From Acidobacteria bacterium RIFCSPLOWO2_12_FULL_54_10 (lineage in GTDB: Bacteria > Acidobacteriota > Terriglobia > 2-12-FULL-54-10), in contig MEKX01000115.1 in the NCBI GenBank assembly GCA_001767075.1, forward strand, positions 1-35,314: DNA of 35,314 nt, written 5' to 3'. The translations under genes and the position numbers were made by a program. The notes under the pieces were generated by a model that was given only the letters and a program-made list of their open reading frames with translations, ran no database searches and was not told where the DNA came from. Below are positions 1,394 to 27,813 of the stretch, piece by piece; the stretch's first letter is position 1, and each line of letters opens with the position of its first letter.

Positions 1394-2428
1394 ATGGAAA
1401 ATCCAGAGCCACGCATCCTGTCGTTGGCGACGGCTGTTCCGCCACAGCGCTTCACGCAGGAGGAGACGCTACAATTGGCGGGCTACACCAGCCCCGCCGC
1501 CCGCAGAATCTTTCTAAACAGTGACATTGATTATCGCCACCTTTACATCCGCCCATCTGACCGGGTGCCCCACGAAGACCCTGACGAACTACACCATCGC
1601 TACAAAGAAGGAGCTGTCTTGCTGGCGCGGCAGGCAGCGGAAAATTGTTTGGCGAAAGCTGGGATGGCCGCGTCGGAAATAGATTGTATCCTCGTCTGCT
1701 CCTCCACGGGGTATCTTTGTCCCGACCTCGCTACCATCCTGTTCAAGGAAATGCAACTGTCCCCGCGAATCCAGCGGGGAACGCTTTTGGGATTAGGCTG
1801 CGCCGGAGCGTTGCCCTTATTGCAGCGCGGGGTGGACCACGCCTTGGCCTATCCGGATCACCGGGTCTTGCTGATTGCCATAGAGATTTGCTCCGCAGCC
1901 TATTTCCTGGACGACACCCTGGAGACTGTGGTTGGCAACGCTATCTGCTCCGATGGAGCAGGCGCTTGCTTGCTCACTGGCACAGCCAATGCAGGTCCCC
2001 GCATCACCGGCTTTGCCACGGTGTTGGACTGCAACTGCCAAAGCTCGGTGGGCTTTGCCCAACGACAGGGCAAGTTGCGCATCATCTTGTCCCCACACAT
2101 CCGAGAGCTGGCGCCCCCGATGATAGACCGCGTCCTCGACGAACTGCTGCTGCCGCGCGGCCTGCGGCGCTCGGACATCCGTTTCTGGTGCCTGCACCCC
2201 GGAGGCCGGAAGGTCATTGACCACGTTCAGCAAGCGCTCGGTCTGAGCGATGAAGACGTCTCCGTCTCCCGCCATGTCCTGAGGAACTACGGAAACATGT
2301 CCTCCGCCACGGTTCTCTTTGTGTTGGAGGAAATGGCGCGAAGCGGATGCCCGCGCTCTGGGGATCGAGGGGTCTTAATCGCTCTAGGCCCAGGCTTCGC
2401 CGCCGAGGCCGCTTTGCTGGAATGGTAA
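1394..2428 (+). CDS. Type III polyketide synthase (chalcone/stilbene synthase-like)
   Basis: Thiolase fold with GLGCAGALP (Cys), CLHPGGRKVIDHV (His) and NYGNMSSATVLFVLEE (Asn) motifs. Confidence 0.9.
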   Translation: MENPEPRILSLATAVPPQRFTQEETLQLAGYTSPAARRIFLNSDIDYRHLYIRPSDRVPHEDPDELHHRYKEGAVLLARQAAENCLAKAGMAASEIDCILVCSSTGYLCPDLATILFKEMQLSPRIQRGTLLGLGCAGALPLLQRGVDHALAYPDHRVLLIAIEICSAAYFLDDTLETVVGNAICSDGAGACLLTGTANAGPRITGFATVLDCNCQSSVGFAQRQGKLRIILSPHIRELAPPMIDRVLDELLLPRGLRRSDIRFWCLHPGGRKVIDHVQQALGLSDEDVSVSRHVLRNYGNMSSATVLFVLEEMARSGCPRSGDRGVLIALGPGFAAEAALLEW

Positions 2429-2506: not shown

Positions 2507-3232
2507 GTGCCCAATTTTTCTTCGCGAAAACTCGTCTCGGAACTGATTGATGGGGGCCATATGCCCGAGGACAAGGTACGGCGCAATCTATTGGACCTCC
2601 GCCGCATCAACCGGCTTTTCGGGAGCCGGCGACTTTTATTGGAAGCCATCCAAAATCAGGTCACACGTCGCGGACTCACCCGATTCACCGTCCTGGACCT
2701 TGCCAGCGGGTCGTGCGACATGCCGCTTGCCATTCTGCATTGGGCGGAGCAACAAGGGCTGGAAGCTCAAATCGTTGCCCTGGAATACTGGCACCGCTAC
2801 CTGGCGATGTTTCAACGGGAACTGACATCCTATCCCCGGTTGCATCCCATCGTAGCTGATGTTTTCTGTGCGCCGGTCGCGGACCATGCTTTTGACTTCG
2901 TCGTCTGCAATCACTTCTTTCATCATCTGACGGAAGAGCGTGCCATCGAGCTTTTGCGGGCAATGACCCGCTGGGCGCGCACCGCCGTCATCGTCAACGA
3001 TCTGGACCGGCAGGCAATTCCCTATTATTTCTTCCGACTGTTCCACCTCTTTTTCACCACTAGCTCGATGAGCCGCGTCGACGGCCTGGCTTCGTTTCAA
3101 CAAGCGTTCCGCATGGAAGAACTGGAGCGAGTAGCAAGGCAGGCTGGTCTTGAAAATGTCCGCATCGAGCGACGTTGGCCGTTCCGCCTGCTTTTGGTAT
3201 CTGAGCTTTCACCAACACCAGAGTCCCGCTGA
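2507..3232 (+). CDS. Class I SAM-dependent methyltransferase
   Basis: VLDLASGSCDMPLAIL motif I; FDFVVCNHFFHHL; directly downstream of the PKS. GTG start at 2507 or ATG at 2561. Confidence 0.8.
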   Translation: MPNFSSRKLVSELIDGGHMPEDKVRRNLLDLRRINRLFGSRRLLLEAIQNQVTRRGLTRFTVLDLASGSCDMPLAILHWAEQQGLEAQIVALEYWHRYLAMFQRELTSYPRLHPIVADVFCAPVADHAFDFVVCNHFFHHLTEERAIELLRAMTRWARTAVIVNDLDRQAIPYYFFRLFHLFFTTSSMSRVDGLASFQQAFRMEELERVARQAGLENVRIERRWPFRLLLVSELSPTPESR

Positions 3233-3559: not shown

Positions 3560-4480
3560 ATGCTCCCACATCGTAGCCATTTCCCACATCGTCATTCTGT
3601 CCATTCCCACTGGAAGCGATGGTTCTTCATTCTAATGCTGCTCTTGTTGTACCTATTTTTTCTGGTCAGCCATGTAAGTGGCCAGCATGGGGCTCCGTGG
3701 CATTGGATGCACATGCACAGGACTCTTGTTTCCTGGACGTCGGTGACGGTGGGTACTCCGCCAGCGGCAGAAACCAAAATGCTGGCTTTAGGGAAGGAGA
3801 TTTACCGCAACAACTGCACAGTTTGCCACGGCGATACTGGCAAGGGGGATGGAAGATGGGCCAACTATCTGACACCCCGGCCGCGTAACTTCACCCGCGG
3901 AATCTTTCGCTTCAAGAGCACCCCGAGCAGCACGTTGCCTACCGATAAAGACCTGTTTCGGACGGTCTCCGCAGGCGTCAATGGCACGGCCATGCCGTCC
4001 TGGCAGTTTGTTCTTCCTGAAAAAGAACGCTGGGCGGTGGCATCCTACTTGAAGACTCTTTCCAAGGACTTTGCAGAGGAGGCATCTGGCAAGCCAATTG
4101 TTCTGGCTCCCGAGCCTGACATCACCCCGGAGCGAGTAGCTCGTGGGGAGCAGATTTTCCGGAAGAATTGTGTGGAGTGCCACGGACCGGAAGGATACGG
4201 CGACGGCCCCTCCGCCTGGAATATGGAAGACTCCTTTGGCGATCCGATTGAACCGCGCAACTTCCACCGAGTGGCAGAATTCAAACGAGGCCATCCGTTA
4301 GGCGATATTGCCTTGGCCGTGGCCACCGGCAGCGATGGCACTCCCATGTCCTCTTTCAGTCCCTTGGGAAAAGAGGCCATCTGGAACGTGGCCATCTCTG
4401 TCATTTACTTGGCGGAGAATGAGGAAGAAGGATCAGAGCCTGGCGGCTGCTGCTCGATGGGGATGGGAATGAGAATGTAG
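3560..4480 (+). CDS. Membrane-anchored diheme cytochrome c
   Basis: Two heme motifs (CTVCHG, CVECHG), N-terminal TM, His-rich N terminus, GGCCSMGMGMRM tail. Ribosome-binding-like aaaggaggt just upstream. Confidence 0.9.
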   Translation: MLPHRSHFPHRHSVHSHWKRWFFILMLLLLYLFFLVSHVSGQHGAPWHWMHMHRTLVSWTSVTVGTPPAAETKMLALGKEIYRNNCTVCHGDTGKGDGRWANYLTPRPRNFTRGIFRFKSTPSSTLPTDKDLFRTVSAGVNGTAMPSWQFVLPEKERWAVASYLKTLSKDFAEEASGKPIVLAPEPDITPERVARGEQIFRKNCVECHGPEGYGDGPSAWNMEDSFGDPIEPRNFHRVAEFKRGHPLGDIALAVATGSDGTPMSSFSPLGKEAIWNVAISVIYLAENEEEGSEPGGCCSMGMGMRM

Positions 4481-7861: not shown

Positions 7862-8650
7862 ATGTCCGGCATGGGAAACTTAGCCGGAGTGAAACGAGAT
7901 TTTGCCGCGTTAGAGCGGCGGCGGATGAGGGCCGCTCGGTTATTAGAGCGCGGGTGGAAGGAAGCGGCGGTAGCCCGGCGAGTGGGTGTGCATCGGCAAT
8001 CGGTCAACCGGTGGGCCAAGCAGTTGGCGTCCGGAGGCCGGGAGGCGTTACGGAAATCCCCTCGCGATGGACGCAAGCCCCAACTGAGCGCGGCAGACCT
8101 CCGACGAATCGTGGAGGGGCTGCAACGGGGCCCGGAAGCTCTGGGATACGAAACCGGACTGTGGACCAGTTGGCGGGTGGCCGATCTAATCGAACGAGAA
8201 TGTGGGGTTCGATATACCCGCGTCCACGTCTGGCGCATTCTCCGGGAGTTGGGCTGGAGTTGACTGTGGCCCGTCGGGCGCGCCTTGGAACAGGATGAGA
8301 AAGCGATTCGCCGCTGGAAGCAGGTGCGCTGGCCGGAAGTAAAAAAAAACTCCCAAAGACCAGAGCGCACGATCGTCTTTGTCGACGAGACGGGGCTGAG
8401 CGAGCGGGACTTGCGGGAGGGAGCTCAGGCTGCCGGATTCCCAACGGATCTGTGGACCTGTCCGCGAGTCGCTCCATTCATTTGGGCGCGCTGCGGAGTC
8501 CACTACGAAGTCTCCCGGGTCTGGCGTCTGCTGCGCTCCCTGGGTTGGACTCCCCAGAAACCAGAGCGCCGGGCTGTGGAGCGCAACGAACGGGAAATCC
8601 AGCGCTGGATCAAGAAGCAGCAGCCCCGCATTCAAAAAAGCCCGCCGGCA
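7862..8650 (+). pseudogene. IS630-family transposase remnant, mosaic of two N-terminal regions
   Basis: HTH region MSGMGNLAGVKRDFAALERRR...ILRELGWS, in-frame TGA, then QDEKAIRRWKQVRWPEVKKN...FVDETGLSER, which switches abruptly to a second HTH-type segment AAGFPTDLWTCPRVAPFIWARCGVHYEVSRVWRLLRSLGWTPQKPERRAVERNE. Confidence 0.85.
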
Positions 8651-8782
8651 ATAAGTAGCGAGCAATCCGCCGCCAACCCACAGAAAGCGTGCTATACTGA
8701 GCAGCTATTGCGGCGGGGTCCCGCGTCCAGTGACTTGTATCTGCCGGTACGAGAACGGGATGTGATCGAAAAGGGGCTCGAA

Positions 8783-9844
8783 ATGAAGTGGGCGCGTTCG
8801 ACGTGGTTCTTGTTGCTGTGCAGTCTCGTAGCGGTTCTTCCCTCGACAGCGGCCAAGCAGTCGGACCCGCAGGAAGTGGAGACCTGCCTCGCCTGCCACG
8901 GTGACAGTACTCTAGAAATCTCCTTGCCCAGCGGTGAGGTGCGCTCTCTTTACGTGGAGCCAACGGCATTTGCGGCTTCCATCCACGGCAACAAGCTTGC
9001 CTGCACAGATTGCCACGCAGACATTACGGAAATACCCCATTCGTCCAAGCCATTCCGAACGCTCCGGGAGTTTTCCGTCGCCTATTACGAGGCCTGCAAA
9101 AGCTGCCATTTTGCTAACTACACCAAGCTCCTGGACAGCGCCCACTATGCACGCCTCGCGCAGGGGGACCAGCGGGCTCCGCTGTGCGTAGACTGCCACG
9201 GCGCTCACTCCATTACCCCTCTCAACAAGCCGCGCTCCCAGCTTTCCAAGACCTGCGCGAAATGCCACCAGGAGATATCCGGCGTTTATAGCCAGAGCGT
9301 CCATGGGCGCGCTCTTCTGGGAGGGAACAGTCAAGACGTACCGGTGTGCACCGACTGCCACCGTTCTCATGACATCGCTGACCCGAGAACCTGGAATTGG
9401 CGTCGCAACATTCCGCAGCTTTGCGGCGGCTGCCATGGGAATCGGGAGTTGATGGTGAAATATGGCATTTCCAGAGACGTTTTCCAAAGCTATTTGGACG
9501 ATTTTCACGGAATGACCAGTTCCCTGTACCGTGAGGAGAAGGCTGCGCCTCCCACGATTACGGCGCTCTGTACGGATTGCCACGGGGTCCATGACATCAC
9601 GAAGGTTCAAGAACCGAACTCCCGGGTAGTGAAAGCAAACTTGGTGAAGGTGTGCCAGCAATGCCACCCGGACGCGTCCGAGAACTTTCCTTCGGCCTGG
9701 CTCTCCCATTACGAGGCGAGTTGGAAACAAGCCCCCTTGGTCTATATGGTAGAACTGTTTTACAAGATTTTCATTCCCTTCATAGTGGGTGGGCTGATCC
9801 TTCAGATCGGCCTGAATCTCTGGCGAGTGGTGGCCAATCGATGA
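8783..9844 (+). CDS. Multiheme cytochrome c with nine CxxCH motifs and a C-terminal TM anchor
   Basis: CLACH, CTDCH, CKSCH, CVDCH, CAKCH, CTDCH, CGGCH, CTDCH, CQQCH. Signal peptide from MKWARSTWFLLLCSL; the 8285-8782 extension is IS remnant. Confidence 0.92.
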   Translation: MKWARSTWFLLLCSLVAVLPSTAAKQSDPQEVETCLACHGDSTLEISLPSGEVRSLYVEPTAFAASIHGNKLACTDCHADITEIPHSSKPFRTLREFSVAYYEACKSCHFANYTKLLDSAHYARLAQGDQRAPLCVDCHGAHSITPLNKPRSQLSKTCAKCHQEISGVYSQSVHGRALLGGNSQDVPVCTDCHRSHDIADPRTWNWRRNIPQLCGGCHGNRELMVKYGISRDVFQSYLDDFHGMTSSLYREEKAAPPTITALCTDCHGVHDITKVQEPNSRVVKANLVKVCQQCHPDASENFPSAWLSHYEASWKQAPLVYMVELFYKIFIPFIVGGLILQIGLNLWRVVANR

Positions 9845-10539
9845 GCGATTACGTCCGGCGTTTTACTCTTCGGCAGATTATCCAACACTTCTGTGTCATG
9901 GTTCTTTTCATCCTCTTGGCTCTGACGGGGTTCCCGCAAAAATTCTCCGAGGGGGACTGGGCCCGATGGATCATCCAGACCTTGGGGGGAATTGACCAGA
10001 CCCGATGGCTGCATCGGTACAGCGGGATTCTCTTCGCCGCGCTGGTGGCGGTTCATATACAGAGCGAGATATTCCGGCTGGTGCTGCGCCGGGCGTCTCC
10101 GGCGATGGTCCCGACGGGGAAGGACTTCCAGGATGCGGTGAAGATGCTGCGGTACTATCTGGGTCTCTCGGACGAGCAGGCGCGATTCGGCCGGTATGAT
10201 TACCGGCAGAAGTTTGAATACTGGGGGCTGGTGCTGGGATCGGTGATCATGATCGCCACAGGCTTTATCCTGTATTTCCCCATCGCCGTCACTCGTTTCC
10301 TGCCGGGGGAACTCATCCCGGTTGCCAAGATCGCGCACAGCAATGAGGGGCTCCTGGCATTTCTGGTGGTCATCACCTGGCATATCTTCAACGCCCACTT
10401 ATCTCCCGACTCCTTTCCTTTCGATGCGAGTATCTTCACCGGAAAGATCAGCCGGGAGAAGATGGAGAAGGAGCACCCGCTGGAGTATGAGCGGATGCAA
10501 GAGTTAACCCGACCCGCAGAATCGAGCCAAGATGACTGA
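9841..10539 (+). CDS. Cytochrome b561 / formate dehydrogenase gamma-like membrane subunit
   Basis: ATGA overlap with the multiheme cytochrome stop; four TM-like segments with His residues (IIQHFCV, RWLHRYSG, VHIQSE, ITWHIFNAH). Confidence 0.85.
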   Translation: MSDYVRRFTLRQIIQHFCVMVLFILLALTGFPQKFSEGDWARWIIQTLGGIDQTRWLHRYSGILFAALVAVHIQSEIFRLVLRRASPAMVPTGKDFQDAVKMLRYYLGLSDEQARFGRYDYRQKFEYWGLVLGSVIMIATGFILYFPIAVTRFLPGELIPVAKIAHSNEGLLAFLVVITWHIFNAHLSPDSFPFDASIFTGKISREKMEKEHPLEYERMQELTRPAESSQDD

Positions 10540-10640
10540 TTCGCTGTTCCGCCCGACTGTCCGGCTTGATTTCGCACTCGCCTTTTTACGAGTTTCCTGA
10601 AACACGACGTGCAGCCGGGATTCCCAAACGGAGGCAGTCC

Positions 10641-12518
10641 ATGAAGAGATTCTCCTTACGACAGGCTTGGAGCCGTCGAGGGCTTCGTGTTCGGATCATC
10701 CTTCTGGTGGGGGTCGGCACGCTGGCTCCCGTCCTGGCTCTCGGCTGGGCCAGTTGGGCCAGATTTGGGGATATGAGGGAGCAACTGCTGGCGGAGCGGC
10801 GGCTTCTGGCGGAGAGCATTGCCCGCCACGTGGAATATGTTCTCCAGTCGAACCTGGAAATCTTGCAGGGAACATCCTCCAAGCTTGGCGTGGATTTTGA
10901 AAATCTGGATATAGTCCAAGGGCAGGCTGCCGTTAAAGAGGCATACCTCCGCTCTCGGTTGCTGGGGCGAGTCTTTCTGCTGGCGCCGAATGGGGAGGTT
11001 TTGTGCGAGGAGCCTGTCGGCAGCGGTGAAATCACGGCGGTCTTGGCCGGCCTTCCGGTCGCTGCAGAGGCGCTTCGCACGGGCCGACCGACCGTTTCGG
11101 AACTGGTCTGGGATTCCAGCCGCGGCCGACGCCTCTATCTGCTGGTGCCGATGAGGAACTGGCAAGGGAAGGTGGTGGGACTGGTCGCCGGCCAAATTGA
11201 TCCGGCGAATCCCCAGCTTCACTCGCTCCTCCAACCATTTCTGTTTAGCCGCAACAGTTCGGCGGACTTGGTGGATGGGCAGGGAATCGTCCTTGCGTCC
11301 ACAGACCCGAGTCGGCTCTATCAGCAGCGGGACCATCGCCAGTTTTTACAGGGACTCATCCGACAGCGGAAGTCTGCGACGGGCGCCTGCCACAGTTGCC
11401 ATCCGGGCAGTATGCTGCGCGGGCAAGTTCAGGAGGTCATCACCTTTGTTCCCCTCTCGTTGGCTCCTTGGGGAATCTTGCTTCGGCAACCGGAGGCGGA
11501 GGCCTTCGCCACCGTGATCTCACTCCGCCGCCAAGTCCTTGGGTTGGGGCCTGTCCTCCTGGCGGTGGCCGTGCTCTTTGCCTGGGGAGCGGCCCGGAGT
11601 GTAACAAAGCCTCTCGGCGTGCTGACCGGGGCTTCCGAGCGAATCGCTGCCGGGGATCTGGCAGAGCCGATTGCCTCGTTGGGCGAAGATGAGGTGGGTC
11701 GGCTGAGCCGCTCGCTGGAAAAGATGCGGGCGGCCTTACAAGAGTCTCTAGAGAGCGTGGCGCAGGCCAACCAGCAATTGGAGCGCAGAGTGGAAGAACG
11801 AACGAGGGAATTGGAGCGCTTGTACCAGCAGCTCCGCGAGCGGGAAGAGTCGCGCAGGCAGTTGCTCCGTAAAGTGATTTCTGCCCAGGAGGAGGAGCGG
11901 AAACGGATCGCCCGCGAACTCCACGATGAAACGAGCCAGGCCCTGACCGCCCTGCTCATGAGGCTCGAAACAGTCTTAGTCGCTCTCCCCTCGGAGGAGC
12001 CGCGAAGGCGGTTGGAGGAAGCCAAGGTTTTGGCAGGGCGAACGGTGGATGGGTTGCACCGGCTCATCCTGGATCTGCGTCCCGCGGTGCTGGACGACCT
12101 GGGCCTGCTTTCCGCCATCCGCTGGTGCGCCGAACGACACCTAAAGCCTTTGGGGACCGTCGTTCGGTGTGAGTTCAGCGGACTCGACCGGCGCCTGCCG
12201 ACGGAAATCGAGACGGCTCTTTTCCGCGCAGTCCAGGAGGCCGTAAGCAACATTGCCAAGCATGCCCAAGCCGAAACGGTGTTGATCCAATGCGCCCTGC
12301 GTGGCGGCGTCCTTACGGTAGAGATCGAGGATGACGGCAAGGGCTTTGACCCCTCGAAGATGGGCACGCCCGGGGCCGCCATTCGCGGGGTGGGTCTGCT
12401 GGGGATTCAGGAACGCATGGAATTGCTGGGAGGATCGGTTCAGATCGAGTCCGAGCCGGGCCAGGGCTGCCGCCTCGTCCTGACCGTGTCCGTCGCCTCG
12501 GAGGGAAGCGATGCCTAA
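10641..12518 (+). CDS. NarL-type sensor histidine kinase with a CxxCH motif in the extracytoplasmic sensor region, HAMP, HisKA_3 and HATPase domains
   Basis: QEEERKRIARELHDETSQALTALLMRLE (HisKA_3 H-box), DDGKGFDP and GLLGIQERMELLGG (ATPase), GACHSCHPGS between two TM regions. Purine-rich gacGGAGGcag before ATG 10641. Confidence 0.92.
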   Translation: MKRFSLRQAWSRRGLRVRIILLVGVGTLAPVLALGWASWARFGDMREQLLAERRLLAESIARHVEYVLQSNLEILQGTSSKLGVDFENLDIVQGQAAVKEAYLRSRLLGRVFLLAPNGEVLCEEPVGSGEITAVLAGLPVAAEALRTGRPTVSELVWDSSRGRRLYLLVPMRNWQGKVVGLVAGQIDPANPQLHSLLQPFLFSRNSSADLVDGQGIVLASTDPSRLYQQRDHRQFLQGLIRQRKSATGACHSCHPGSMLRGQVQEVITFVPLSLAPWGILLRQPEAEAFATVISLRRQVLGLGPVLLAVAVLFAWGAARSVTKPLGVLTGASERIAAGDLAEPIASLGEDEVGRLSRSLEKMRAALQESLESVAQANQQLERRVEERTRELERLYQQLREREESRRQLLRKVISAQEEERKRIARELHDETSQALTALLMRLETVLVALPSEEPRRRLEEAKVLAGRTVDGLHRLILDLRPAVLDDLGLLSAIRWCAERHLKPLGTVVRCEFSGLDRRLPTEIETALFRAVQEAVSNIAKHAQAETVLIQCALRGGVLTVEIEDDGKGFDPSKMGTPGAAIRGVGLLGIQERMELLGGSVQIESEPGQGCRLVLTVSVASEGSDA

Positions 12519-13170
12519 AATCCGGGTCCTGATTGCAGACGACCACGCCATTCTCCGAGAGGGAATTCGCGCACTGCTGGCGTTCCAAGCAGATATGGAG
12601 GTGGTGGGGGAAGCTGCCGACGGCAGCGAAGCGATCGAACAGTGTCGTCGGCTCCACCCGGACATCGTGTTGATGGACATCGCCATGCCCGGGTTGGGAG
12701 GACTGGAAGCGACGCTGGAGATCAAGAAAGAAGATCCCCGCATCAAGATTCTGGTTCTCACCCAGTATGAGGAACGCGAGTACATTCGGAGATTTCTGAA
12801 GGCCGGGATGGCCGGCTATGTCCTGAAAAAGGCCGTCAGCTCCGAACTGGCCACGGCCATTCGCGCCGCCTACCGCGGGGGCCTCGTCTTGGCGCCCGAA
12901 GTGGCCCGGGAAGCTCTGGAGGAATTCCAGGAGCGATCCGCACTCGAAGAAAGCGCTGATCCTTACGAGATGCTCACCGACCGCGAGAAGGAGGTGCTCA
13001 AGCTGGTAGCGGAAGGCCACAGCAACAAAGAGGTGGCGGAGACCCTCGGCATCAGCGTGAAGACGGCCATGTCTCACCGGGAGCATCTCATGGACAAATT
13101 GCAGCTCCACAACCGGACGGATCTGATCCGGTTCGCGCTGCGCCAAGGAGTCATCCGCGCCGAACCCTGA
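12511..13170 (+). CDS. NarL/FixJ-family response regulator (REC + LuxR HTH)
   Basis: RVLIADDHAILREGIRALL, DIVLMDIAMPG, LTDREKEVLKLVAEGHSNKEVAETLGISVKTAMSHREHLMDKL. Overlaps the kinase stop by 8 nt. Confidence 0.95.
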   Translation: MPKIRVLIADDHAILREGIRALLAFQADMEVVGEAADGSEAIEQCRRLHPDIVLMDIAMPGLGGLEATLEIKKEDPRIKILVLTQYEEREYIRRFLKAGMAGYVLKKAVSSELATAIRAAYRGGLVLAPEVAREALEEFQERSALEESADPYEMLTDREKEVLKLVAEGHSNKEVAETLGISVKTAMSHREHLMDKLQLHNRTDLIRFALRQGVIRAEP

Positions 13171-13280
13171 CGCCAAATTCTTCGGGCTGGACGGGAACTG
13201 GCTCCGCCGCAATCCGAAGCCGATTTGGCTTGCTCCACGATCCATCCGAAAAGGCCGGTGCGGGTCGCGGCGCATGCCGT

Positions 13281-13586
13281 TCAGGCCCGGAGGGTGGCAC
13301 GGACCAGCGCCCTCAGCTCTGTGATCGCCTTGCCGAGAAACTGCATGATCTTCCGCGCCACCAACCAGAAAACCATGGCAAACCCAATGAAGGGCAGGAA
13401 GACCACGTAAAGGAGACCCAGGAAAGGTGCGCTGCACATAAACAAGAGCACCGGCAACTTGATGTAGCGGTCTGTTTCGCTCCCCGGCAGCAGTCCGGCG
13501 CCTTTTTCAATAGTGACAATCTCCCACCTCTTGAAGTTCCAGTAAAAACCGCTCTTAACGCTTTGTCCACCTTGGTAGTTCAGCAT
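13281..13586 (-). CDS. Small membrane protein of unknown function
   Basis: AAGGAGGAAAATGCAATG start context at 13586; two hydrophobic segments (LPVLLFMCSAPFLGLLYVVFLPFIGFAMVFWLV). Confidence 0.65.
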   Translation of the reverse strand: MLNYQGGQSVKSGFYWNFKRWEIVTIEKGAGLLPGSETDRYIKLPVLLFMCSAPFLGLLYVVFLPFIGFAMVFWLVARKIMQFLGKAITELRALVRATLRA

Positions 13587-13623
13587 TGCATTTTCCTCCT
13601 TCTGTATAACACTCTTATCATTC

Positions 13624-13642
13624 CACCTGTACGATACAGGTG
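13624..13642. promoter_or_regulatory. Candidate operator palindrome CACCTGTA-CGA-TACAGGTG
   Basis: Perfect 8-bp inverted repeat with 3-nt spacer, 38 bp upstream of the 13586 start codon. Confidence 0.4.
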
Positions 13643-13871
13643 AACGCCGTGCGTAACAATACGGAGACCACCCGATTCGCCTAGGGAAAAAGAACCTACC
13701 TCCGAGAGAAAAACTTCTCAGGAGGAGGATCAATTCACCGGAGTTCGCGGGGGGTAAATCCCCTAGAAGATGTTTCAAAACCTGGTACAAGCCACTGATT
13801 CTGCTTTGAATCGGTAGCGGTTATCCCGGATAACGTGGTTGCCAGGAGACTCGATGCCATGATCCGGACCG

Positions 13872-14050: not shown

Positions 14051-14310
14051 CTGGCGTCTGCTGCGCTCCCTGGTTGGACTCCCCAGAAACCAGAGCGCCG
14101 GGCTGTGGAGCGCAACGAACGGGAAATCCAGCGCTGGATCAAGAAGCAGTGGCCCCGCATTCCCAAAAAGCCCGCCGGCTGAGGGCGCCCCTGATTTCCC
14201 TCGACGAAACCGGCTTTCTGATGGCCCCTTTGATCTGCCGAAGCTGGTTTCCCCGGAGCCAAACCCCCATCTTCTATCAACGCGGCGGCTCCTATCAGAA
14301 GGTCTCTTGA
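14050..14310 (+). pseudogene. IS630-family transposase remnant
   Basis: Near-identical to 8521-8649, then LISLDETGFLMAPLICRSWFPRSQTPIFYQRGGSYQKVS (IS630 DDE start). Confidence 0.8.
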
Positions 14311-15834: not shown

Positions 15835-17769
15835 TTACAGCAAGATGCGCTCGTCGCCGAGGCGGCGGGTGACACGCTCCCGATCTAAATATTCTAACAG
15901 CGGGATGGCGTACTTGCGGCTGACCTGCGTCAGGTCTTTGAACGTCCCGATGGTGATGCGGTCGCTCTTGGTTTTGTATTCCGCAAGCAAACGGCGGAGC
16001 TTGGCGAGGGCTTCGGCGTGAAATACTAAATCGTCGGAGAGTTTTACCAAAACCTTTTCCTGCACCAAAATCCGAAGTATTTTCTCCACCCGCTGGCGCT
16101 CGATGGGGAGTTTGCCGAGCACTTCTTTTACAGAGGGCACCGCGAGACCAGCCTGCTCAAAGGCTTTGGCAATTTGCTGTTTAGCCTGCTCCTCTTCTTC
16201 CTTGAGCACAATTTGATGGGTCTGCAAACGGACGATCTCCCCGGCGAGGGCGATCTGTTTCTTTTCTTCCAGTTTTTTCAGGACAGCTTCGATGAGGAAA
16301 GGGTGCGCGCTGGGAAAAAGTTTGCTCCGCAGCACTTCTTTCGAGAGGCCGGGAATAAGCGGGTTTTTCTTGTGAAACTCCTCCAGGGTACGCACAGCGG
16401 CGGCCCTCATCCGATCAACAAGCGCCGATTCAGCCATCAACAGAGGGGTCTCTCGAAGGATCGTCAGTTTGCCAGCCGCTTGTAGTGAATTGGCCGCCTG
16501 GCGGCATTCTTCCGGCAGCCAGCCGGTGTGAGCGATCAGGTCATTTTCCTCCACGCAGCCGCCCGGACTGCGGCGGAGCAGATGGAGCAGAATCTCTTCG
16601 CGGTTCCCTTTGTCCAAGACCTGCAAGAATTTCTTGGCTTCTTCCCGCGAAGAGGACCGTGTTGGAACCAAGCGTCGCGGCACCCAATTGTCCAGAATGC
16701 GTCCGCCGCCAATGGTCGTAACCGGGGAAAGCTGCCGGAGGATGAAACGATCCTCCGGCAACAGCAGCGCCGTGCTGCGGAGCCTAAACCGCACATAAGC
16801 GACCTGGCCAGACTCTAGCTTGCGTTCCGTATCATCGGCAGCAGGCTCCTCCAACAGGACGACCTTAGCCACCAACTCTGCCGTTCCGGAGTGGAAATGG
16901 ACCAGGGTACCGTTCTTGAGAGGCGGCGCGGAAGGAAGCAAGTGGAGAAGGCAATCCACCTGTTTGGTGGGCTGGAAGCGGTCAGGCTCGGTGAGCGTCA
17001 TCCCGCGAGCCAGTTCTCCCACCTCCACACCCGCCAGATTCAGCGCCGTGCGCTGCCCGGCGCTGGCTACTTCGACCGGCTGGTTGTGCACCTGAATTCC
17101 CCGAACCCGGAACCGCTTGCCCAGCGGATGCACTTCTACTTCCGCCTCCTTGCGGATCATCCCGGAAACCAGCGTGCCGGTGACAACCGGCCCAAATCCC
17201 TTCATTACAAAGGACCGGTCAATCGGGAGGCGAAAATGATGAGAAGAGTCCTTCGCGGGAACTTGCTCGGCTACTTTTCGCAGTTCCTCTTTCAGTTGCT
17301 CGATTCCCTCCCCCGTCCGCGAACTGACGGCTACGATAGGCGCTCCTTGCAGGAAGGACCCGGCGACAAATTCCTCGATCTCCAGCTTCACCAGTCCCAA
17401 CAGTTCCGGCTCCACCAGGTCCGCCTTCGTAACCGCCACAATTCCGCGCGGCACTTCCAGCAGGCGGCAAATGTCAAAGTGCTCCCGCGTCTGCGGCTGG
17501 ATGGATTCGTCGGCGGCCACCACAAACAAGACAAGGTCTATGCCCCCAATGCCCGCCAGCATGTTCTTCACAAAACGCTCATGGCCGGGTACATCCACAA
17601 AACCCAGGCGATAGGAGGGCAAATCCAGGGTGGCAAAACCGATGTCAATCGTGATCCCCCGCCGCTTCTCCTCCTCCAGGCGGTCGGGGTCCGTCCCCGT
17701 CAAAGCCCGCACCAGGGCGCTCTTGCCGTGGTCAATGTGCCCGGCTGTCCCTACGATGACGTTTTTCAT
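15835..17769 (-). CDS. selB: Selenocysteine-specific translation elongation factor SelB
   Basis: [63 protein letters not shown], plus C-terminal winged-helix region. Confidence 0.93.
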
Positions 17770-21674: not shown

Positions 21675-21750
<76 letters not shown>

Positions 21751-23495: not shown

Positions 23496-23984
23496 ATGGG
23501 ACCGCTTCTCGCGTTGGGAAGGATTCTGCTGGCGGCAATTCCAACCTTTTTTCTGGTGTGGATTTTGTATTTCTATACGACCCGCGTCTTCCTTCGCCCT
23601 CTAGAAAAAACGCTGCACGAGCGCTATCAGATCACCGGGGGCAGGCGGGAAATCGCCGAAAGGAACCTGGCGATCACGGAGCAAAAAGCCGCGGAATATA
23701 AAGAAGCTTTAAGAGCAGCCCGGACGGAACTGTACCGCCAGCAAGAGCAAGAACGGCAGCAAGCCTTGGAACGCCGCGCAGAGATTGTCCGCCAGGCCCG
23801 CCAACAAGCCGAAGAAACGGTCGCTCGATCCAGGCGGGAACTCGGGGAAGAAGTGGAGGAAGCCAAGAAGCGGCTGGCGGCAGAGAGCGAGGCGCTCGCC
23901 CAGTCCATACTGCAAGCAATTCTGGAACCGGCTCCGGGGCTGGCTCCCCCCCCTCCAGCCCGTGGATCGGAGGGTCCACTCTAG
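23496..23984 (+). CDS. F-type ATP synthase b/b'-like subunit
   Basis: N-terminal TM followed by a long charged helix (RPLEKTLHERYQITGGRREIAERNLAITEQKAAEYKEAL...); first gene of the atp block. Confidence 0.8.
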   Translation: MGPLLALGRILLAAIPTFFLVWILYFYTTRVFLRPLEKTLHERYQITGGRREIAERNLAITEQKAAEYKEALRAARTELYRQQEQERQQALERRAEIVRQARQQAEETVARSRRELGEEVEEAKKRLAAESEALAQSILQAILEPAPGLAPPPPARGSEGPL

Positions 23985-23986
23985 CC

Positions 23987-24559
23987 ATGGCCAAGCGTTT
24001 CTCTCTCCGCTCAAACACCATCGCCTCCTTAGTAGCACTCGCCCTGGTGTGGAGTCTCGGTGCCCAACTCAAGTCCTACTGGGAATCCAGTGCTGCGCTC
24101 GCGCAGGAGCATCCGCCAACGGTCTCGGAGGTAGCCCCGCCAGCCCAGCCGGAAGCCACCCCCGCCGAGCAGAGCGCCACAGAGGAACACGGCCAACCGG
24201 AAGAGGAAGGGGCGCTGGGGATCGTTTTCCATTGGTTTAATTTTGCCCTGATCCTGGGGGGCATTGGATACCTGGGGAAAAAATACATGGCTCCGTTCTT
24301 CGACCAGCGCGGCAAGGCGATTCGAGAAGAGATGGAACATTCGGCTCAGGCTATGGCCGAAGCCACTCAACGGCTGTCCAGCATTGAAGACAAACTGCAA
24401 CGGTTGGATGAAGAAATTCAGGAACTCCGCCGCACCGCCTTGGAAGAAGCGGCGTCGGAGCAGGCCCGCATCGCAGAGGCGACCAAAGCGGAGGCCGACA
24501 AAATCGTAAGGGCAGCCGGGCAAGAGATTGATTCCGCCGCCAAGGCGGCGCGCCGGTAG
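23987..24559 (+). CDS. atpF: F-type ATP synthase subunit b, interrupted by TAG at 24557-24559
   Basis: NFALILGGIGYLGKKYMAPFFDQRGKAIREEMEHSAQAMAEATQRLSSIEDKLQRLDEEIQELRRTA...; same frame continues 24560-24763 with b-like C-terminal sequence. Confidence 0.85.
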   Translation: MAKRFSLRSNTIASLVALALVWSLGAQLKSYWESSAALAQEHPPTVSEVAPPAQPEATPAEQSATEEHGQPEEEGALGIVFHWFNFALILGGIGYLGKKYMAPFFDQRGKAIREEMEHSAQAMAEATQRLSSIEDKLQRLDEEIQELRRTALEEAASEQARIAEATKAEADKIVRAAGQEIDSAAKAARR

Positions 24560-24763
24560 TTGCGAATTTACATGGCGGACCTCGCCGTCGGATTAGCCGG
24601 GAGGCGAATCCAGGAGACCATCACGCCGGCGGCGGAAAAGCGAATCTTCCGCTCGTTCCTGGTAGGTCTTCACGACGACTCGAAGCGGCGCTCGGAGAAC
24701 TCCTCCGGCCCCTCCGCAGCTTCGCCCGGCAACCCTTCATCGCACTCGCCGGGAGGAGCCTAG
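24560..24763 (+). other. In-frame continuation of atpF after the TAG codon
   Basis: LRIYMADLAVGLAGRRIQETITPAAEKRIFRSFLVGL resembles the usual C-terminal segment of subunit b. Confidence 0.7.
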
Positions 24764-24766
24764 CTC

Positions 24767-25324
24767 ATGCCATCTGCCGTAGCGTTCCGCTATGCTCGGG
24801 CTTTGGTGGATGTCGTTACCGGGCCCAACGCAGCCCAGGCGGGGCAAGAACCGCGAGCGATCGCAGTTCAGTTGGCCAAATTCAGCGACCTGCACCAGGA
24901 AAACCGGGAACTGCGCGTTCTGTTTTCCACTCCGGCAGTTTCTACGTCCAAAAAGAAGGCGATCTTGTCAGAGTTAGCCGCTAATCTGGGTCTGGCTCCG
25001 CTGACGAAAAATTTCCTAAATGTGGTCATCCAACACGAGCGGATGAATTGGCTGCCCGATTTTACCGAGGCTTTCACGGTGTTGTTGGATGAGCATCTGG
25101 GAGTCGTTGTCGCGGAGGTGACAACGGCTCGTCCCCTCCCCGAAGAAGAAAGGCAAGGATTGGCGGCGGCGCTGGAAAGTAAAACGGGCAAGCAGGTGCG
25201 GATGAATCTTTCTCTCGATCCGACCCTGATGGGGGGAGTGGTGGCCCGGATCGGCAGCACCATCTATGATGGATCGGTTCGCGGACAGCTCGAGCGCCTC
25301 CGCACCGACCTGGTGAGCGGGTGA
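24767..25324 (+). CDS. atpH: F-type ATP synthase delta subunit
   Basis: [10 protein letters not shown]...[50 protein letters not shown]...[25 protein letters not shown]. Confidence 0.93.
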
Positions 25325-25346
25325 AATCACAGATTCCCTGCAAGGA

Positions 25347-26909
25347 GTGAACATGGCACAGATCAAAGCGGATGAAATCAGCAAAATCATCCGCCAGCAG
25401 ATTGAGAACTTCGAAACCGTCATGAACGTGGCCGAAGTCGGCTCGGTGATCTCCGTCGGAGACGGGATCGCGCGCGTTTACGGTTTGGAAAAGGTCATGG
25501 CGGGCGAGTTGCTGGAGCTTCCCCACGGAGTCACTGGAATCGCCATGAACCTGGAGGAGGACCAAGTGGGCACGGTGCTGCTTGGGGAGTACACCTCCAT
25601 CAAAGAGGGCGATCTGGTGAAGCGAACCGGCAAGATCATGTCGGTCCCGGTGGGAGACGCCTTGGTTGGGCGGGTGGTGGATTCGCTGGGCCGCCCGTTG
25701 GATGAAAAAGGCCCCATTTTGACCGACCGCTCCAACCCCGTGGAGCGCATCGCCCCGGGAGTCATAGACCGCAGGCCGGTCCGAGAACCGCTGCAAACCG
25801 GCTTGAAAGCGATTGACGCCATGATCCCGATCGGACGAGGGCAGCGCGAGCTGATCATCGGCGACCGGCAAACGGGTAAGACGGCTGTGGCGCTCGATGC
25901 CATCCTCAACCAAAAGGGGCAGGACGTCATTGCGATCTACGTGGCGATCGGCCAGAAACGCTCGACGGTTGCTCAGGTGGTGAAGACCTTAGAGGATTAC
26001 GGGGCCATGGAGTACACCATCGTCGTGGTGGCCTCGGCCAGCGATCCGGCCCCGATGCAATACCTGGCTCCCTATTCTGGCTGCGCAATCGGGGAGTACT
26101 TCCGCGATACCGGAAAGCACGCCTTGTGCATCTATGACGACCTGTCGAAACACGCGGCGGCTTATCGTGAAATTTCCCTCCTGCTGCGGCGGCCACCGGG
26201 CCGCGAGGCTTACCCGGGCGATGTTTTTTATCTGCACTCGCGGCTTCTGGAACGAGCCGCCAAACTGAGCGACGATAACGGCGCGGGGTCGCTGACCGCA
26301 CTGCCGATTATTGAAACGCAGGCGGGAGACGTTTCCGCTTACATTCCTACGAACGTCATCTCGATCACGGACGGACAAATTTATCTGGAAACCGACCTGT
26401 TCAACTCCGGCATCCGCCCGGCAATCAACGTGGGGCTCTCTGTTTCCCGCGTCGGCGGCAATGCCCAAATCAAGGCCATGAAACAGATCGCCGGCACGCT
26501 CCGTCTGGAATTGGCGCAGTACCGCGAACTGGCTGCTTTTGCCCAGTTTGGTTCTGACCTGGACAAGGCGACGCAGGCCCTGCTGTCGCGAGGGGAACGT
26601 CTGACAGAGCTACTGAAACAAGACCAATACAGCCCCCTGCCCGTTGCCAAACAGGTCCTGGCCGTTTATGCCGGCACTCGTGGTTACGTGGACGACCTGC
26701 CCGTGGAAGAAGTGCGGCGGTTTGAGAGCGAGCTTTACCAGTTTGTGGATACCCATCATCCATCGCTGCTGCAAAAATTGATGGAGAAAAAGCAATTGGA
26801 TGACGCCATGCGCCAGGAGTTCGATGGGGTCCTAAAGGAATTCAAAGAACGGTTCATGACCGAACGCATGCCGGTGAAACCCGTGCCCGCCGGGACGGCG
26901 GCTCGCTGA
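25347..26909 (+). CDS. atpA: F-type ATP synthase alpha subunit
   Basis: [21 protein letters not shown]-loop; [23 protein letters not shown]; full length. Confidence 0.98.
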
Positions 26910-26946
26910 ACCGATTGTTGTCACCAATAAAACCGGAACAGAAGCC

Positions 26947-27813
26947 ATGCCAAGCTTGATTGATATGCGCCGGCGGATTCGCTCGGTGCGCAGCACACAA
27001 CAAATCACCAAGGCCATGAAAATGATCTCCGCGGCCCGCCTGCGCCGGGCGCAGGAACGCGCCTTTGAGGCTCGTCCGTACGCCAACTTGCTGCAGGAAG
27101 TGCTGGAAAGCTTGGTGGCGCGGGTGGAATCCCCCCGGCATCCTTTATTAGTGCGCCGTACGGAGGAAAGGATTCGGGTTTTGGTTCTTTCCGGCGACCG
27201 GGGGCTGTGCGGCGCTTTTAACACCAACGTCATCCGAGCCACGGAACGGTTCCTGGAAGAGCACCGCAGCCAGCAGATGGAACTGGCCCTCATTGGCCGC
27301 AAAGCGCGGGACTATTTCCGGCGGCGAACCACGAGCATCCATCAGGAGTTTGTGAACATTTTCTCACATTTGGATTTCCACCACGCCCGCGAAATCAGCG
27401 CCGACGTCATCTCTTCTTATGCAGAGAGCAATACCGACGCGGTCTATCTCATTTACAACGAGTTCAAAAGTATGCTTTCCCAGCGGGTTGTGGTGAAGCG
27501 CTTACTGCCGCTGGCAGGGTTTCAACCACCGCCGGAGCGCGCCGCCGCTTTCCTGAAAGTGGATTATATTTATGAGCAACCACCCCAGGAGATTTATGAC
27601 AGCCTGTTGCCCAAGTATGTGGAGATCCTGACCTTCCGGGCCCTGCTGGAGTCTGCCGCCGCCGAGCACGCCGCCCGCATGACAGCGATGGATTCTGCTA
27701 CCAACAACGCCGGCGAGATGATTGAATCCCTCACCCTAACCATGAACCGCGTTCGCCAGGCCACCATCACCAAGGAACTCATCGAAGTGGTCAGCGGCGC
27801 CGCGGTGCAGTGA
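26947..27813 (+). CDS. atpG: F-type ATP synthase gamma subunit
   Basis: MPSLIDMRRRIRSVRSTQQITKAMKMISAARLRRAQ; C-terminal MTAMDSATNNAGEMIESLTLTMNRVRQATITKELIEVVSGA. Confidence 0.98.
   Translation: MPSLIDMRRRIRSVRSTQQITKAMKMISAARLRRAQERAFEARPYANLLQEVLESLVARVESPRHPLLVRRTEERIRVLVLSGDRGLCGAFNTNVIRATERFLEEHRSQQMELALIGRKARDYFRRRTTSIHQEFVNIFSHLDFHHAREISADVISSYAESNTDAVYLIYNEFKSMLSQRVVVKRLLPLAGFQPPPERAAAFLKVDYIYEQPPQEIYDSLLPKYVEILTFRALLESAAAEHAARMTAMDSATNNAGEMIESLTLTMNRVRQATITKELIEVVSGAAVQ

Follow-up and report, generated by a model that had tools for sequence, protein, structure and literature searches.

Gene Organization of the Locus

We analyzed a stretch of 35,314 nucleotides from Acidobacteria bacterium RIFCSPLOWO2_12_FULL_54_10 (contig MEKX01000115.1), which is referred to below as the window. 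The four-gene module and the features around it are as follows.

7862-8263, + strand: remnant of a transposase-like helix-turn-helix gene upstream of the module, with HTH_32, HTH_29, HTH_23 and HTH_33 matches; IS630-like by reading
8521-8649, + strand: left copy of the 130-bp direct repeat, which consists of IS630-like transposase debris and shares 96% identity with the right copy
8783-9844, + strand: nine-heme c-type cytochrome, 353 aa, with nine CxxCH motifs and nine further histidines
9841-10539, + strand: di-heme cytochrome b of the FdnI / Ni-hydrogenase type, 232 aa (PF01292 and 1kqf_C matches)
10641-12518, + strand: sensor histidine kinase with the Pfam-based order TM, double Cache (one CxxCH), TM, HAMP, HisKA_3, HATPase_c
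10683-11543, + strand: double-Cache sensor region (dCache_1 match), used for alignment A1
11334-11336, + strand: candidate distal heme ligand His232, 18 residues before CHSCH, based on His/Cys counts in relatives
11388-11402, + strand: putative heme-c attachment motif CHSCH, kinase residues 250-254, based on the sequence and the sensor model
12511-13170, + strand: NarL/LuxR-type response regulator, 219 aa (Response_reg and GerE)
14051-14179, + strand: right copy of the 130-bp direct repeat, in the same orientation, so that the two copies flank the four-gene module

An earlier note on this DNA had described four tightly packed genes on the + strand. We checked the order and found all four genes, namely the nine-CxxCH cytochrome c, the cytochrome b, the HisKA_3 kinase and the NarL-type regulator. 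Both reported overlaps were also observed, an ATGA shared by the two cytochrome genes at 9841-9844 and 8 nt shared by the kinase and regulator genes at 12511-12518. The description as tightly packed was correct within each of the two gene pairs and incorrect between them, where a gap of 101 nt separates the end of the cytochrome b gene (10539) from the start of the kinase gene (10641). The best start of the kinase was the ATG at 10641, which is preceded by GGAGG. For the cytochrome c, the ATG at 8783 was chosen over the automatic start at 8285, because the ORF from 8285 crosses the transposase debris. The HisKA_3 and HATPase_c domains of the kinase and the Response_reg and GerE domains of the regulator all scored over their Pfam cut-offs. 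Scans of positions 8600-13700 for sigma-70 promoters and terminators gave no excess over shuffled sequences.

Composition of the Cytochrome Pair

The cytochrome c has a signal-peptide-like N-terminus and a C-terminal hydrophobic transmembrane anchor. Its CxxCH motifs were located at residues 35, 74, 105, 135, 158, 189, 214, 263 and 291, and exactly nine histidines were found outside the motifs (H68, 86, 121, 142, 174, 196, 242, 270 and 309). These numbers give the count required for nine bis-His hemes, with the ligation itself being predicted. The nine motifs and eight of the nine additional histidines were invariant among 37 orthologues, and the remaining one, H86, was kept in 31 of the 37. 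The cytochrome b matched PF01292 with 52 bits, which was over the cut-off, and it matched 1kqf_C, the gamma subunit of formate dehydrogenase N (FdnI), with an E-value of 6.8e-13. Four histidines of the cytochrome b (H16, H58, H166 and H181) were invariant among 34-35 relatives and were aligned with the histidines of FdnI that serve as ligands of its two hemes b. Both proteins are diheme membrane cytochromes b with four aligned ligand histidines; they differ in the partner, which is a multiheme cytochrome c here and a dehydrogenase in the case of FdnI.

The nine CxxCH motifs with nine further histidines, together with the four FdnI-type heme-b histidines, indicated that the pair resembles a split CbcL-type quinol oxidoreductase. 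CbcL, an inner-membrane quinol oxidoreductase of Geobacter sulfurreducens, consists of nine c-type hemes and a diheme b domain (PMC9129911). The likeness is one of composition: nine c-hemes, expected to be bis-His here from the motif and histidine counts, and a diheme b-type membrane domain, indicated here by the PF01292 match, the FdnI alignment and the four invariant histidines. CbcL is, however, one fused protein, whereas the c and b parts at this locus are two ORFs with an ATGA overlap, and no kinase has been described as part of CbcL. Long single ORFs that span both parts exist in the same class (L013 and L016). Since the composition of the pair is that of CbcL, split in two, its most likely job is quinol oxidation with transfer of electrons to the periplasm. 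By this analogy, the pair probably passes quinol electrons into the periplasm, and the same analogy suggests the direction of flow.

Fold and Family of the Kinase Sensor

The sensor of the kinase matched dCache_1 (PF02743) with 50.6 bits against a cut-off of 45, over the whole double-Cache region, and this profile was matched by all 17 sensors in alignment A1. The AlphaFold2 model of the sensor (pLDDT 86.4, pTM 0.82) was a double Cache with two modules. When the PDB was searched with Foldseek, the top matches were almost all dCache sensor domains, including PctA, PctC and Mlp24. Sequence searches for PDB relatives yielded nothing useful with the single sequence and matched dCache chains with the sensor profile. 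In the second, membrane-proximal module of the model, a short helix that lies between b3 and b4 holds the CxxCH (residues 236-240 in the model numbering, flanked by strands 232-235 and 251-257).

Previous work has reported that DUF3365 domains carry a CxxCH in the helix between b3 and b4 of a single Cache, and this single-Cache domain was, according to that 2026 paper, the first of the Caches to be described with a covalently bound cofactor (PMC12889525). Membership of our sensor in that family (PF11845, DUF3365/Tll0287 sCache_heme) was considered and rejected, because there was no profile match and the sensor has two Cache modules instead of one. None of the 17 sensors matched PF11845 at E <= 10, in a search whose HMMER filters could have missed very weak matches, and hhalign detected no relation between the sensor profile and DUF3365 (probability 3%). 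Like the sCache_heme proteins, such as GSU0582 and GSU0935 of Geobacter, the sensor is an extracytoplasmic Cache with a CxxCH between b3 and b4 and fused signalling domains. Unlike them, it is a double Cache, it matches dCache_1 and not PF11845, and it has a candidate distal residue 17-18 residues before the CxxCH. It shares its fold with the dCache_1 receptors PctA, PctC and Mlp24, whereas those receptors bind amino acids and have no known covalent cofactor. The combination of a HisKA_3 kinase and a NarL-type regulator is shared with NarX/NarQ-NarL, but NarX-type sensors are helical bundles and not dCache domains with a CxxCH, and the NarQ and NarX models matched the kinase far below their NCBIfam cut-offs (87 bits versus 553 and 71 versus 578, respectively). 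The earlier note did not recognize that the sensor is a double Cache, nor that it differs from the heme-Cache family already known. No double-Cache domain with covalent heme was found among the papers searched; a heme-bearing double-Cache sensor beside such cytochromes appears to be previously undescribed.

The Heme Motif and Its Candidate Distal Ligand

The CHSCH is the only CxxCH of the kinase and lies in the extracytoplasmic sensor. Its position is conserved across phyla, indicating that the motif is not a chance match, and from the sequence we infer that heme would be attached to it. The motif was present in 53 of the 89 sensor relatives found. The residue 17-18 positions before it was His in 31, Cys in 21 and Tyr in 1 of the 53, so that 52 had His or Cys; at the other positions in the 30 residues before the motif, His and Cys together reached at most 9 of 53. 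The form of the motif was associated with the type of this residue: CHxCH was found in 29 of the 31 His-type sensors and in none of the 21 Cys-type sensors, a split that rests on few evolutionary events. In a tree from which the heme segment was left out, the Cys type fell within one Myxococcota clade with a support of 99/99. The only other member of this clade, L044 (7235-9217), carried the decayed motif VECPSPP and, judging by its sequence, is a probable case of recent heme loss. Heme-less sensors were scattered over the tree, and several losses or gains are required.

Motif and distal residue were both kept over large divergence and tended to be lost together. Such co-variation is the behavior expected of a sixth ligand, suggesting that the distal His or Cys is a probable ligand of the iron. 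The double-Cache fold, the place of the motif within it and the co-variation with a His/Cys partner strengthen the earlier note's claim of a heme-motif sensor. Sensors without the CxxCH were found in the same cassette (L045, L051, L055 and L093-L098), indicating that the cassette can do without the heme. The sole CxxCH sensor with Tyr at the distal position, L140:1809-4547, adjoins another heme sensor and a pair of seven-heme cytochrome c and cytochrome b.

Linkage across Phyla and Related Sensors

We scanned bacterial genomes with the cytochrome c and obtained 27 loci, most of them at 46-63% identity. The phyla represented were Acidobacteriota, Myxococcota, Chloroflexota, Dadabacteria and Tectomicrobia, and the Myxococcota loci included some from named Anaeromyxobacter species. 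The kinase and regulator were on the same strand in most of the 27 loci where the contig was long enough; a scan based on the cytochrome c is enriched for linked loci, and the Acidobacteriota and Myxococcota genome samples are less biased. Among 396 Acidobacteriota genomes, 10 encoded the cytochrome c at an identity of at least 48% and 26 encoded the sensor. The sensor was present in nine of the ten genomes with the cytochrome c, with the kinase adjacent in 9/9, and it was missing from the remaining one (G431, to which L050 belongs). Among 193 Myxococcota genomes, the sensor was found in 25 and adjoined the cytochrome c in most of them; the others were mainly at contig ends, and L231 was without the cytochrome c. 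The pairwise distances of the four proteins were correlated, with r = 0.82-0.90 compared with a permutation maximum of 0.29 (44 loci, a few represented twice). The linkage across genomes and the correlation of distances indicated that the block travels together. Co-occurrence in relatives had been put forward with the original reading as its own test, and the cytochrome pair and the two-component system were found together in many loci of several phyla. These results supported a quinone-linked cytochrome b / multiheme c module with a dedicated two-component system, and the earlier interpretation is supported overall.

In most relatives, the kinase is separated from the cytochromes by two extra genes, a feature that went unseen in the first reading of this DNA. 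Examples of these genes, which follow the cytochrome b in many relatives, are at L038:9937-11566, L058:7449-9077, L046 and L088. The first encodes a BlaR1-like M56 membrane protease. The product of the second is an anchored protein about 190 residues long, which contains the motif YFPxxLxWPP and could not be assigned securely to a Pfam family; its model (pLDDT 92) bore only a weak resemblance to PsbP-like folds. Both genes were absent from this locus and its three nearest relatives (L090-L092), indicating that neither is required.

Some Chloroflexota genomes (L129-L141 and L238-L244) encoded up to seven paralogous double-Cache kinases, many of them with a CxxCH. The heme-bearing paralogues adjoin 5- to 11-heme cytochromes, NrfC/NrfD-like genes or a molybdopterin oxidoreductase. 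A gene with at least five CxxCH was found near 8 of 16 heme sensors and 2 of 19 heme-less sensors in Chloroflexota (p ~0.02, uncorrected for relatedness). We lean slightly towards the view that these proteins form a second, independently arisen heme-Cache family in several phyla. In this view, double-Cache kinases would have gained a membrane-proximal c-heme, one clade would have exchanged the distal His (CHxCH) for Cys, heme would have been lost repeatedly, and each kinase would be wired to a dedicated respiratory module. The His, Cys and heme-less variants of the double-Cache heme sensors would offer a natural series on what decides between redox and gas sensing.

Proposed Mechanism and Alternative Explanations

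We consider it likely that the four genes constitute a self-regulated respiratory cassette, consisting of a split CbcL-type pair, a heme double-Cache kinase and a NarL-type regulator. The cytochrome b would contribute two hemes b and a quinol site, and its partner would be the nine-heme cytochrome c, held by a TM anchor; together they would form a split CbcL-type oxidoreductase through which the quinol pool supplies electrons to acceptors in the periplasm. The double-Cache sensor of the kinase would read the periplasm through a c-type heme attached at the CHSCH of the membrane-proximal module. The sixth ligand of this heme is probably His232, with Cys in its place in the Myxococcota branch. 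A redox change of the heme, or a ligand exchange involving NO, would move the HAMP/HisKA_3 output, and the NarL-type regulator would then tune the expression of the cytochrome pair. Control of the cytochrome genes by the regulator is suggested by their linkage. A shared palindromic operator was sought upstream of the cytochrome c and none was found, so the DNA lends no support to this regulatory target. The 101 nt between the two gene pairs also weigh against the self-regulated cassette. Sigma-54-like -24/-12 sites (TGGCA..TTGCT) were present upstream of the cytochrome c in six Acidobacteriota orthologues (L034, L035, L045, L055, L088 and L089), whereas the window has no such motif.

In DUF3365 proteins, the Cys/His form is a redox protein and the form without Cys binds NO (PMC12889525). 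Given this behavior, and because His and Cys are both strong sixth ligands, the sensor heme most likely reports the periplasmic redox state, and redox is favored over NO as the signal. It seems unlikely that nitric oxide (gas) sensing is the primary role of the sensor and that the cytochrome pair feeds a nitrogen-oxide or NO-detoxifying reductase. This explanation draws on the tight NO binding of signalling sCache_heme domains (PMC12889525), on the NarX/NarL style of the kinase and regulator, and on Chloroflexota paralogue loci with an NrfH/NapC-like pentaheme protein (L135) and an NrfC/NrfD-like pair (L141). However, the sCache_heme NO sensor lacks the axial Cys (PMC12889525), whereas the double-Cache sensors nearly always keep the His/Cys candidate, like the redox-type members. 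In addition, the cassette has no conserved NO-related gene, and a search of the paralogue loci for NO-specific neighbors revealed mixed respiratory genes only.

The joint conservation of the motif and the distal His/Cys over large divergence, and their tendency to vanish jointly, also argue against a double Cache whose membrane-distal module is the site of a soluble ligand and whose heme is structural or vestigial. Among loci of at least 6 kb, a multiheme gene lay alongside 37 of 50 heme sensors compared with 13 of 30 heme-less ones, which argues in the same direction. We regard a soluble ligand as quite improbable, even though the closest folds are ligand-binding dCache domains and the cassette persists without the CxxCH in several relatives. 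A CxxCH that is not heme-loaded and serves instead as a metal or disulfide site would fit the degenerate motif of at least one close relative (L044), but it is very unlikely given the periplasmic location, the exact CxxCH, the constant distal His/Cys and the two PF01578 cytochrome c assembly proteins that the genome encodes. That the two gene pairs are chance neighbors brought together by transposition, as the transposase debris that flanks the four genes as a direct repeat (96% identity) could suggest, is extremely improbable and, on the sequences compared, largely refuted by a linkage that recurs in many phyla with correlated distances. The repeat pair may be a trace of recent (composite) movement, and since the linkage is conserved in distant relatives, the grouping is older than any movement associated with the repeats.

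In the self-regulated cassette that we favor, a sensor would be tied directly to a CbcL-like quinol oxidoreductase. This would open the choice among parallel quinol-oxidising cytochromes to tests in culturable Anaeromyxobacter.

Other Genes in the Window

A cytochrome c of the class I type, with two Cytochrom_C stretches, was found at 3560-4480 (+), about 4 kb upstream of the four-gene module. A type III polyketide synthase (chalcone synthase-like) is encoded at 1394-2428 (+) and is followed by a methyltransferase at 2507-3232 (+). The selenocysteine-specific elongation factor SelB is encoded at 15835-17769 (-); tRNA-Sec was not found in the window, where the only tRNA was tRNA-Lys at 21675. 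Genes for ATP synthase subunits (two b-type, delta, alpha and gamma) occupy 23496-27813 (+).
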